From Sipunculus nudus (lineage: Eukaryota > Annelida > Sipuncula > Golfingiida > Sipunculidae), in NCBI GenBank assembly GCA_026874595.1, contig CM049318.1:48278456-48342455 (forward strand): a stretch of DNA of 64,000 nt, given 5' to 3'. How positions within the stretch are numbered: the stretch's first letter is position 1; each line of letters starts with the position of its first letter. Below the pieces are notes generated by a model. The model saw only the letters and a program-made list of their open reading frames with translations. It did no database searches and was not told where the DNA came from. Both the position numbers and the translations under genes were made by a program. This document shows positions 2,490-8,400 of the stretch, in pieces.

Positions 2490-5400
2490 CTGCAGTTTCC
2501 AAACATGGGATACTTTTTCTTTAAGACCAACCATGAAGGAACATTTGCATTTGAAAATGTTACATGTGTGAATCATGTGATGTACAATATTAGCATATGA
2601 ACCACATTCTGTGATGAACTCATAGATAAATGTTCAAAGAGGGCATATCTCAACTAATACCAACCACTGAGCAAACGACAAAAAGTAGAACCCGGGCCAC
2701 ACATCAGCTCCCTCACCAAAGATAGTGTTGTAAGAAATGGTAAGAAATTGTAGGGATTTAACCTTTTGGTTTCTGTTCACCACCTGAATGGCGATCTTAA
2801 CTTATGTTGAATACACATGAAAAAGGACCTTAGTTTAGTTCACACTTCACTCACCAGATGGCAGCACAAGTCTGGCGATCAAAAAGGACCAGTCAGGTGG
2901 TGCATGTACTGTGTTTTGACCTTTGTTTGGGTGTATTCTAAGGGCATTCTCTTCATTTTTCTCATTTTTTTTAAGTTTATGGTTTTCCAATAGGGCCTTC
3001 ATAAGCCTTAAAGTTGTTCTGGTGATAACTCATGAATATGAAAGGGATTTATTTGATGAAAAATGAGTACAACAGTGACAGTTATCTAGATATGGCCAGA
3101 CTGATTCATGCACTGGGTCTATGGGTTCTGCCACCACCACTGGCACAGAACAAAGAGAGCGTGGTGTTACATTCTGCATCCAGCTGCAAATTTTAAACAT
3201 TGCCTGACTACACCGGTTCTGACACAGGGCCCAGAATCAGGCAAAAGACAGGGATGCACAATGTGATACCATGCTCTCATTGGTCAGCTCTGTGCCAGCC
3301 CTGGTGGTGGAACCCAGAGAAGCTTGTTGTACAAAGCAGTGGGATGACTGCAGTGTATAACCACTGGGTGTGGAGCGTAACTGTTACATCACTGCTAGGA
3401 ATGGTTATCTGCATAAATTTAAGTCTCTTTCATAAAATTATTGATATTTCATCAACATAGCCTTGCTGATAATCTATATTTATACGATTCCCCTGAATGA
3501 CAACATGACTGCATGACCTACAAGCATGGGAAGATGCTCCACAATGAGATATCTCTCTCGATCCCACTGTTCAACTCTAACACAAACATAAGTAACAAAC
3601 TTAAAAAATGTAAGGTATACCTCCAGTAACCTGTCACCGGACCTCAGTCTACCATCAGTTATTGCAGCACCTTTAGGTAAGATATTTTTGACATAGATAG
3701 GACAGTTTCCCCCTGCTGGGTTGTCTCTTGTTGTTACACTGAAACCCAGACCATCAGAACCTGCAATTACAAAATAAACTGGCTGTCAATAACCCAGACC
3801 ATCAGAACCTGCAATTACAAAATAAACTGGCTGTCAATAACCCAGACCATCAGAACCTGCAATTACATAATAAACTGGCTGTCAATATAACCAAGACCAT
3901 CAGAACCTGCAATCACAAAATAAACTGGCTGTCAATAACCCAAACCATCAGAACCTGCAATTACATAATAAACTGGCTGTCAATATAACCAAGACCATCA
4001 GAACCTGCAATTACAAAATAAACTGGCTGTCAATAACCCAGACCATCAGAACCTGCAATTACAAAATAAACTGGCTGTCAATATAACCAAAACCATCAGA
4101 ACCTGCAATTACAAAATAAACTGGCTGTCAATAATCCAGACCATCAGAACCTGCAATTACAAAATAAACTGGCTGTCAATAACCAAGACCATCAGAACCT
4201 GCAATTACAAAATAAACTGGCTGTCAATAACCCAGACCATCAGAACCTGCAATTACAAAATAAACTGGCTGTCAATAACCCAGACCATCAGAACCTGCAA
4301 TTACAAAATAAACAGGCTGTCAATAACCCAAACCATCAGAACCTGCAATAACAAAATAAACTGGTTGTCAATAACCCAAACCATCAGAACCTGCAATTAC
4401 AAAATAAACTGGCTGTCAATAACCCAGACCATCAGAACCTGCAATTACAAAATAAACTGGCTGTCAATAACCCAAACCATCAGAACCTGCAATTACAAAA
4501 TAAACTGGCTTTCAATAACCCAGACCATCAGAACCTGCAATTACAAATAAACTGGCTATCAATAACCCAAACCATCAGAACCTGCAATTACAAAATAAAC
4601 TGGCTGTCAATAACCCAGACCATCATAACCTGCAATTACAAAATAAACTGGCTGTCAATAACCCAGACCATCAGAACCTGCAATTACAAAATAAACTGGC
4701 TGTCAATAACCAAGACCATCAGAACCTGCAATTACAAAATAAACTGGCTGTCAATAACCCTAACCATCAGAACCTGCAATTACAAAATAAACTGGCTGTC
4801 AATAACCCAAACCATCAAAACCTGCAATTACAAAATTAACTGGCTGTCATAACCCAGACCATAAGAACCTGAAATTACAAAATAAACTGGCTGTCAATAA
4901 CCCAGACCATCAGAACCTGCAATTACAAAACTAGATGTGTCGGAACAACACGAATGCCCCCGCCTGGGGCAAATTAGAAACATTTGTTAAATTTTGTAAA
5001 AATTTTTTAAGTTCAGGTGGTGTTGTATGGCCAAAAGTAGGTCAACAAGGGCAAAATGCAGACTCAATCTGTAACGGGTCATTATCAAGCAACACACCAA
5101 AAATCAGGCCTGTATCTGCAGACATTGTGAAAAAAAGTCCATACATGTGCATTTTCATAAAAATTTCTGTCTCTCATGAAATTTTCTATGTTCAGGATCT
5201 GTCATATGGTCAAAAATAGGTCAACTGGGACAAAACGCGAACTTGATCATTAAGTATAGTCATTATGCCCCAACAGACCAAACATTAGGCCAGTATCTGT
5301 AAGCATTGCATTGCAAAACTAGAATATTAGCAAAAGCTGATAATCAGTTATTGCAACTAGAATATTAGCAAAAGCTGATAATCAGTTATAAATTTAAATT

Positions 5401-8400
5401 GGAGAGGTATGTACTATGTTTCATAACAATCCACCAAATGCTTCCTGAGAAATAAGGTTTTTTTTCTATACTAAGCCCTGTTACCTTGAAAAGTAGGTCA
5501 AGATCACCCATCTTTAAACTTGACCAAGATTTTGTACATAACATGCATTAGCACTGAAGAAATGAAGTTCCTGTGTTGAATACCTTTGGAGATATCCTGC
5601 ACAAAAGGCCAAAATTGAAAAATCTGATAAAAATTTATTAAAAAATCAGAAACTGTAGGTGGTGCCACAAAAATAGTGCAGCACGCACAGACCATCATTC
5701 AAAATGATCATAGTAAGTTTTGTGAAAATCCACACAATGGTTTCTGAGATATAAGCTTCTGAGTGTTTCTGTATTATCAGCTCTAAAACAAAGAAAAATC
5801 GGTCAAGGTCACCCATCTTTGCACTTGACCAAGATTCTGTTGATATATATCTTCACTGATGAAATAAAATTCCCCCGGTGAGTTCTTTTAGAGATATCAT
5901 GCTCACAAGGCCAAAACTGAAAAATCCAAAAAAAATGGATTGAAAAATCAGAAATTGCAGGTGGTGCCACCAAAATTGTGCAGCACATACAGACCATCAG
6001 TCCCAATGATCATAGTAAGTTTTGTGAAAATCCACACAATGGTTTCTGAGATATAAGCTTCAGAGTGTTTTTCTATAATCAGCTCTAAAATGTAGAAAAA
6101 TGGGTCAAGGTCACTCATCTCCGAACTTGACTGAGATTTTATCGATATACATCTTCACTGATGAAATAAAATTCCAACGGTGAATCCTTTTAGAGACATC
6201 CCGCTCACAAGGACAGACGGAGGCCAGACGGAAAGACAGACGAATGGACAGACGGACGGACAGACGGACTGCTTGGGTGACGACAGTAGCCCATCAGCCT
6301 ATGAGCTGAGGGCTAAAAACGGCTGTACATGTACATTTGTCATGAAAATTTATATTTTTCATGAAATTTTCTTTGTTTAGGAGCCGTAAAACAATCAAAA
6401 GAAGGTCAACCGTGACGAAACGCTAACTCGACCTGTAAGTGGACATTATCTGGCCACACAATAAAAATCAGGCTAATATCTGCAGGCATTGTGAAAAAAA
6501 GTCTGTACATGTGTATTTGTCATGAAAATTTATATTTTTCATGAAATTTTATATGTTCAGGAGCTGTGAAATGGTCAAAAGTAGGTCAACTGGGACGAAA
6601 CGCGAACTTGATCTGTAACTGGTCAATATCTGCCAACACACCAAAAAATCAGGCCAATATTTGCAGGCATTGCGAAAAAAAGTCCGTACATGTGTATTTG
6701 TCATGAAAATATCTATCTTTCATGAAATTTTCTAAGTTAAGGTGCCATTAAACGGTCAAAAGTAGGTCAACCGGGTGGAAACGCGAACTCGATCTATACC
6801 TGGTCATTATCTGGCCACACAACAAAAATCAGGCCATATCTGCAGGCATTGCGAAAAAAAGTCTGTACATGTGTATTTGTCATGAAAATTTCTATTTTTC
6901 ATGAAATTTTCTAAGTTTAGGAGCCGTAAAATGGTCAAAAATAGGTCAACCAGGACGAAACCCGAACTCGATCTGTAACTGGTCATTTTCTGCCAACACA
7001 CCCAAAATCAGGCCAAAATCTGCAGGCACTGCGAAAAAAAGTCCGTACATGTGTATTTGTCATGAAAATTTCTATTTTTCATGAAATTTTTTAAGTTTAG
7101 GGGCCGTAAAACAATAAAAGTAGGTCAACCGGGATGAAACTTAAACTCAATCTGTAACTGGTCATTATCTGCCCACACACCAAAAATCAGGCCAAAATCT
7201 GCAGGCACTGTGAAAAAAAGTCTGTACAACTGTTTGATTTCGGAATGACGGAATGACGGAAGGATGGACATGGGTAAAACTATATGCTCCGGCCACTTTG
7301 TGGCGGGGGCATAATAAAATGGCTGTCAATAACCAAACCATCAGAACCTGCAATTACAAAATAAACTGGATGTCAATAACCCAGACCATCAGAAATTGCA
7401 ATTACAAAATAAACAGCTGTCATTAACCCAGACCATTAGAATCTGCAATTACAAAATAAACTGGCTGTCAATAACCCAAACCATCAGAACCTGCAATTAC
7501 AAAATAAACTGGCTGTCAATAACCCTAACCATCAGAACCTGCAATTACAAAATAAACTGGCTGTCAATAACCCAAACCATCAGAACCAACAATTACAAAA
7601 TAAACAGGCTGTCAATAGTCCAGACCATCAGAACCTGCAATTACAAAATAACCTGGCTGTCAATAACCCAAACCATCAGAACCTGCAATTACAAAATAAA
7701 CTGGCTGTCAATAACCCAAACCATCAGAACCTGCAATTACAAAATAAACTGGCTGTCAATAACCCAAACCATCAGAACCTGCAATTACAAAATAAACTGG
7801 CTGTCAATAACCCAAACCATCAGAACCTGCAATAACAAAATAAACTGGCTGTCAATAACATGACCAGTGGAATATCAACACCTATAGTACAATCCTCAAG
7901 CTATTTATACTTTTCAGATAATTATGTATTTTTTTTTTTAATTTCTGTTCATTATTTACATATTTTATATTAAAAAGGACAATGCCAGCAAAGTATGGAG
8001 ACCAAGCACAAGATAGTAATAAATTTGATAACAATTATGGTACCAACTATCATCAACAGCAAAGCCACATTATTCATTAGACTTCTTTGGTCCCATCACT
8101 TGAGTCAACATATCCTCATTAGACAGATATTAAGTCAGATATTAATGCTATAAAATTTTTGTTAAGGAAAAGTGAAATGCCCACCCAACGAATGCTGAAG
8201 TACAGGATTCATTCACTGCTTAGTCATTTTTCAGATGCAACTGAATTATTACAAAAAAATCTTTACAACCTGATAGGCACCCTTTGGTAGAAGGAATCAT
8301 TATTGGTTTTAAAGGCACTTTTTTCCATCAGAACTTTCTCTATATTAAGACACAATCTACTGGTTACAATCAAGTTAAACATGTAAAATTATAATTTCTT

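Follow-up and report, generated by a model that had tools for sequence, protein, structure and literature searches.

In the Par-3 gene of Sipunculus nudus, the acceptor of the PDZ2 exon is preceded by an intronic minisatellite in which this same acceptor and the first bases of the exon are repeated many times. This raises the question of what such an array is: a device that tunes PARD3 output, as an earlier note on this DNA proposed, or a product of minisatellite growth that splicing tolerates. The window, that is, the whole stretch of 64,000 nucleotides that was analysed, carries the gene on its minus strand. A Par3 N-terminal domain is encoded in 44879-45271 (Pfam PF12053, 1.6e-10), and the PDZ exon at 3621-3760 has a Pfam PDZ match and gives chains of Partitioning-defective 3 homolog as all of its top three PDB matches (2e-17 to 3.2e-17). 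The gene, strand, PDZ2 exon and phase that had been claimed are borne out. Pfam returned no match for six of the eight translated stretches submitted, the upstream Par-3 exon among them, and the remaining Par-3 exons were therefore assigned by eye.

The PDZ2 exon is 140 bp long, with a donor GAG/GTATAC, and its ends were placed by frame and consensus. The intron before it runs from 8662 to 3761 (4,902 bp). It begins at the donor AAAG/GTATAT (8663/8662, with GTATAT starting at 8661-8662) of an exon at 8663-9030 on the same strand, the upper end of which is approximate and lies in an open frame of 8649-9053. Two 53-bp arrays are also present in the gene, at 34509-35031 and 38047-38577. They have an identical consensus, lie about 3.54 kb apart and are accompanied by matching open frames (33779 and 37318); these paired arrays and neighbouring frames are a direct duplication within a Par-3 intron.

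TRF detects two arrays with a 48-bp unit: one covers 3743-4930, with 24.7 copies and a 94% match, the other 7313-7859, with 11.4 copies and 92%. By wraparound alignment, the junction TTTATTTTGTAATTGCAG/GTTCTGATGG is present 36 times, as 11 distal decoys, 24 proximal decoys and the real site with its first exonic base at 3760; the exact number may be off, tandem arrays being hard to assemble, and it agrees with the earlier count of about 36 units of 48 bp that carry the acceptor and exon start, with the exon fused to the last unit. A fuzzy search had yielded 37 copies, one of which is a chance match within an inserted repeat. Each unit consists of 32 intronic and 16-18 exonic bases: of the 18 coding bases described earlier, 16 are shared and two more are ambiguous at the junction.

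Going upstream from the exon, the intronic part of the last unit (3761-3792) holds the real acceptor TTTATTTTGTAATTGCAG, with its AG at 3761-3762, and a TTGAC upstream of it that we take to be a putative branch site. The proximal block of 24 decoy acceptor units follows at 3793-4930, the first exonic base of the nearest decoy being 3808 and that of the farthest 4916. An inserted repeat element of about 2.38 kb then splits the array (4931-7312, no strand assigned; the upper edge is uncertain, 7307-7312). Beyond it lies the distal block of 11 decoy units, from 7313 to about 7858, with first exonic bases from 7347 to 7826, and the remainder of the intron, from about 7859 to 8662; all these intronic parts except the element are read on the minus strand. 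The region 3743-7860, which had been taken as one array, thus does contain two blocks of the unit but is not continuous, the element at about 4931-7312 standing between them. At exon position +12, a T is found in 7 of 10 units of the distal block, compared with 8 of 25 in the proximal one (p 0.06).

When the 1.43-Gb assembly was searched for a 31-base pattern of the junction, 16 exact matches came up, every one within the Par-3 array, and the same pattern read backward gave none; a chance origin of the repeated junction is therefore excluded. The locus of the array is single copy in the assembly. The element at 4931-7312 has at least 39 further copies in the genome, with 95-97% identity to its first 180 bases. 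The 40 matches to 4931-5110 that were scored, out of 917 first-look candidates and with its own copy included, all begin at 4931 and have 95-100% identity. The element contains internal tandem repeats (302 bp x2.4 and 179 bp x5.1 by TRF), and a CTAG is seen at one end with a G+C-rich inverted repeat nearby; presumably it is Helitron-like. Its position shows that a mobile repeat entered an already existing array.

The quality of the decoys is high. The AG is retained in 33 of the 35, and over the 27 bases from -18 to +9 no difference from the real site is seen in 21; the description of about 35 near-perfect decoys is thereby corrected, two having lost the AG. When each decoy was joined in phase up to the exon end in simulation, an early stop arose in every one of the 35 joins. 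In 22 the product reads exactly GSDGLGY before the stop, and the other 13 also stop early. All simulated products end before the real exon body, in the exon that bears the donor at 3621, with a junction still to follow; a premature stop so placed, present in 35 of 35 joins, is a feature of decoy or poison acceptors coupled to nonsense-mediated decay (NMD). The prediction that use of a decoy would truncate the protein is consequently confirmed at the level of these joins.

What, then, would distinguish the real acceptor? With a scoring matrix drawn from general knowledge (used for donors as well), the real site has a local acceptor score of 7.5, as do most decoys, and 35 of the 252 AG sites scanned score at least as high as the real site. 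Since the local sequence is equal for the real site and most decoys, the choice of 3760 must come from elsewhere, and the earlier hint that a downstream feature picks the last acceptor was right in this respect. The predicted exon is 140 bases long from the real acceptor, 188 from the nearest decoy and 236 from the next. A 4-mer score of exon-likeness, trained on the exons surveyed below, is 0.015 downstream of the real site and on average -0.26 for the decoys, while the nearest decoy, for which the scored stretch extends into the exon, reaches 0.028. Downstream exon-likeness therefore separates the real site from the decoys weakly, and the nearest decoy is not separated.

Exons elsewhere in the genome were surveyed with their flanks, comprising all 75 myosin-head matches among the matches listed and 67 of 108 PDZ matches (contigs C1-C16). 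The 41 PDZ matches on contigs numbered above C16, many of them bacterial-looking, were dropped. Exon ends were inferred from frame and consensus, and tandem copies of exon edges were sought by self-BLAST and TRF and then by eye; an array was counted if it had at least 6 exonic bases, the splice dinucleotide and at least 3 copies. Apart from Par-3, whose own exon is outside the 141, four of 141 exons carry such an array (2.8%, interval 0.8-7.1%), at four places in the genome and with one acceptor and three donors. All belong to the myosin set (4 of 75), with 0 of 66 in the PDZ set when Par-3 is left out. The acceptor array (L011) has units of about 80 bp in about 6 extra copies at a myosin exon ending in KDERNYHIF. 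Among the donor arrays, L113 has 36-bp units and 17 sites with the real one, L133 has units of about 30 bp with 7 exonic bases and 18 sites with the real one, both extending past the fetched stretch, and L102 has 3 extra copies at 35- and 61-bp spacing. A fifth array, outside the 4 of 141, adjoins a surveyed PDZ exon (L134/L048): it is a donor array of 64-bp units with 19 sites including the real one, at an exon ending in YKGPEEGLGMSIT/GTAAGT.

Self-BLAST flagged 8 of 142 exons, of which Par-3, L011, L113 and L102 qualify and L122, L075, L076 and L111 do not. L122 has a single extra copy, L111 looks like an intronic repeat, and L075 and L076 resemble alternative myosin exons. In the latter two, several myosin-head matches cover the same profile positions within one gene, like mutually exclusive exons. 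Of the myosin exons of this genome, one of muscle type matches 3i5f, presumably a squid structure, marginally better (194.1 bits) than Myosin-6 (193.0), and a second exon matches unconventional myosins. Also left uncounted were L055 (one extra copy, about 3 exonic bases), L054 (about 2 exonic bases), and L020, L062, L131 and L132, where an array lies near the exon without its splice site. In L020 (1-1044), a 37-bp array begins a few bases past the donor of a PDZ-gene exon and does not include the exon. L131, L132 and L133 (C9, about 48.05 Mb) belong to one myosin gene, in which all three fetched exons have minisatellites at most 60 bp from the matched part. Because self-BLAST missed L133, which was found by TRF, other arrays may have been missed. 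A separate observation concerns contigs C61-C90 of this genome (G000; L026-L031, L035-L038), where repeated equal-scoring PDZ matches lie in long open frames of many small contigs with a G+C of 0.36-0.37; these bacterial-looking contigs are perhaps of a symbiont or a contaminant.

If minisatellites were born blindly with respect to exons, 1.7 straddled boundaries would be expected among 282, a rough expectation built on the minisatellites of this window alone, without the Par-3 array and the inserted element; four are seen (P of 4 or more 0.09). There is no deficit of arrays compared with blind birth, and therefore such arrays appear not to be strongly selected against. Within five arrays, real sites included, 6 of 195 splice-dinucleotide positions are changed, where the changes at the other positions lead one to expect 10.9 (P 0.08), and one of the six changes (in L011) may be an alignment error, as it lies in a diverged edge unit with the AG intact by eye. 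The decoys are not being purged; the lean towards constraint is weak and not significant.

These numbers bear on the idea that the 35 decoys compete with the real acceptor, that the outcome decides how much of the Par-3 mRNA is productive and how much is lost to NMD, and that array length thereby tunes output. The AG kept in nearly all decoys, the early stop after every one of them and the slightly low number of splice-dinucleotide changes are in its favour, and the available part of a report on human IFI6 indicates that splice-site units of a minisatellite can indeed be used (PMC4526556). However, stops in intronic sequence are expected by chance, unrelated exons bear similar arrays about as often as blind birth predicts, and lancelet mirages are stated, in the accessible portion of one paper, to give no aberrant mRNA (PMC3902484). 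We therefore regard the competition as unlikely. The array as a PARD3-tuning device is unsupported, because other exons of the genome carry such arrays at about the blind rate, if anything above it, and because the splice dinucleotides of the decoys change no more, and not significantly less, than the rest of the units.

Alternatively, splice junctions could be favoured minisatellite birthplaces or recombination spots that bear more arrays than the rest of this genome. Four arrays instead of 1.7, and the one at a neighbouring exon, point in this direction, but the excess is not significant, its expectation stems from the arrays of one window, and all four cases are in the myosin set; this idea seems still less probable than decoy competition. 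Recursive splicing, in which each CAG/GTTCTG is an acceptor fused to a donor and a second splicing step repairs decoy use, would fit the GT that directly follows the AG in most units. Yet the candidate donor reaches 1.7 bits, compared with 4.6 and 3.9 for the true donors (matrix from general knowledge), which falls short of a competent donor, and the possibility was set aside as very improbable. That the Par-3 array is an assembly artefact is equally hard to believe: tandem arrays are difficult to assemble, but the units have private changes, a mobile repeat lies inside the array, the assembly comprises 1.43 Gb in 153 contigs, and other arrays with other units exist.

We consider it probable that the Par-3 array is instead a mirage, founded by slippage, grown by unequal exchange or slippage, and tolerated by virtue of exon definition, with any leak removed by NMD. 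The stretch before the first unit ends in CATG/TT, the exon reads CTGGG/TTTCAG, and the unit junctions read TTGGG/TTATTG or CTGGG/TTATTG. Both ends of the duplication thus show a GTT triplet: the first lies upstream of the acceptor, the second occupies exon positions +16 to +18, and the distance between them is 48 bp. A duplication between the two would explain the unit, its phase and the 16-18 exonic bases. Judging from this junction, the founding event was probably a tandem duplication straddling the PDZ2 intron-exon boundary, by slippage or template switching at the 3-base microhomology GTT. Unequal exchange or slippage would then have expanded it to 36 units; the mobile repeat split the existing array into two blocks.

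Under exon definition, the body of an exon together with its donor determines which acceptor is used, namely the nearest. On this view the PDZ2 exon would be recognised through its body and the donor downstream of it, so that splicing takes the acceptor closest to the exon body and treats the other 35 as intron. The persistence of the array is then proposed to reflect how little harm it does. A transcript that occasionally took a near decoy would gain at least 48 bases and a stop, and would probably be removed by NMD. The array, the quality of its decoys, their stops and the similar arrays at other exons are direct observations, and a PARD3-tuning function is not needed to explain the array.

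A splice-donor minisatellite in human IFI6 (6-16) was reportedly described by Turri in 1995. According to the available part of a later report, two downstream units of the minisatellite are used as donors (PMC4526556). As in Par-3, the unit holds the splice site of the adjoining exon and nearby units are candidates for use, but the IFI6 site is a donor instead of an acceptor, and two of its downstream units are reported to be used. The closest relatives are the mirages of the lancelet, described in the accessible text as duplications of 5' and of 3' intron-exon boundaries that resemble minisatellites, vary in length and leave regular splicing undisturbed (PMC3087553). The corresponding portion of a second paper adds the PGBD5 and TnC cases and states that the Adh and TnC mirages generate no aberrant mRNAs (PMC3902484). 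As far as these texts extend, the mirages of Adh, globin, TnC and PGBD5 are all reported to be compatible with regular splicing (PMC3087553, PMC3902484).

Like the mirages of Adh3, BflGb6, BflGb9, TnC and PGBD5, as these partial sources present them, the Par-3 array consists of tandem copies of an exon-intron boundary with its splice signals, and like those of BflGb6 its units join the 3' end of an intron to the start of an exon (PMC3087553, PMC3902484). In the same sources, the 6 and 3 copies of the BflGb6 haplotypes compare with 36 in Par-3, and unit lengths of 150-160 bp (BflGb6) and 10-72 bp (Adh3) with 48 bp (PMC3087553, PMC3902484). The Par-3 array differs in genome and gene and in being split by a mobile repeat. 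With 36 boundary copies, the splice signal kept in 33 of 35 decoys, and both types of boundary affected in the genome (acceptor in L011; donor in L113, L133, L102 and L134/L048), it fits the structure of a mirage and would be a large case of an already known kind. There is also a likeness to intron gain by tandem duplication of AGGT proto-splice sites, as far as the available text describes it (PMC3087553), in that the duplication crosses a splice junction and the Par-3 unit has CAG/GT; unlike in that process, the Par-3 units lie inside an existing intron, carry stops and create no new intron. A literature search not specific to Par-3, with most subscription papers outside its coverage, found boundary-spanning minisatellites in lancelet and IFI6. 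An intronic minisatellite of an abalone gene is not described as boundary-spanning in the available part of its report (PMC6905558). An added result here is that mirage-type arrays recur at several exons of one genome, at acceptors as well as donors.

Par-3, in which 21 decoys share 27 bases with the real acceptor and all lie upstream of it, offers a clean natural test of acceptor choice, where the contribution of local sequence can be weighed against that of the exon body and donor. Several genes carry such arrays, at acceptors and at donors, and their frequency is not below that of blind birth, which suggests that tandem decoys are tolerated by splicing even in dozens. Should some of the decoys leak, expression would be subject to array length, a modifier that changes fast. 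It could be imagined, as an improbable extension, that splice-junction minisatellites are a common class here (4 of 141 sampled exons), that many genes have tens of near-perfect tandem decoys, and that, through low-level decoy use and NMD, the length of an array modifies gene output in a heritable and perhaps somatically unstable way, with new splice sites and introns readily arising from such arrays.
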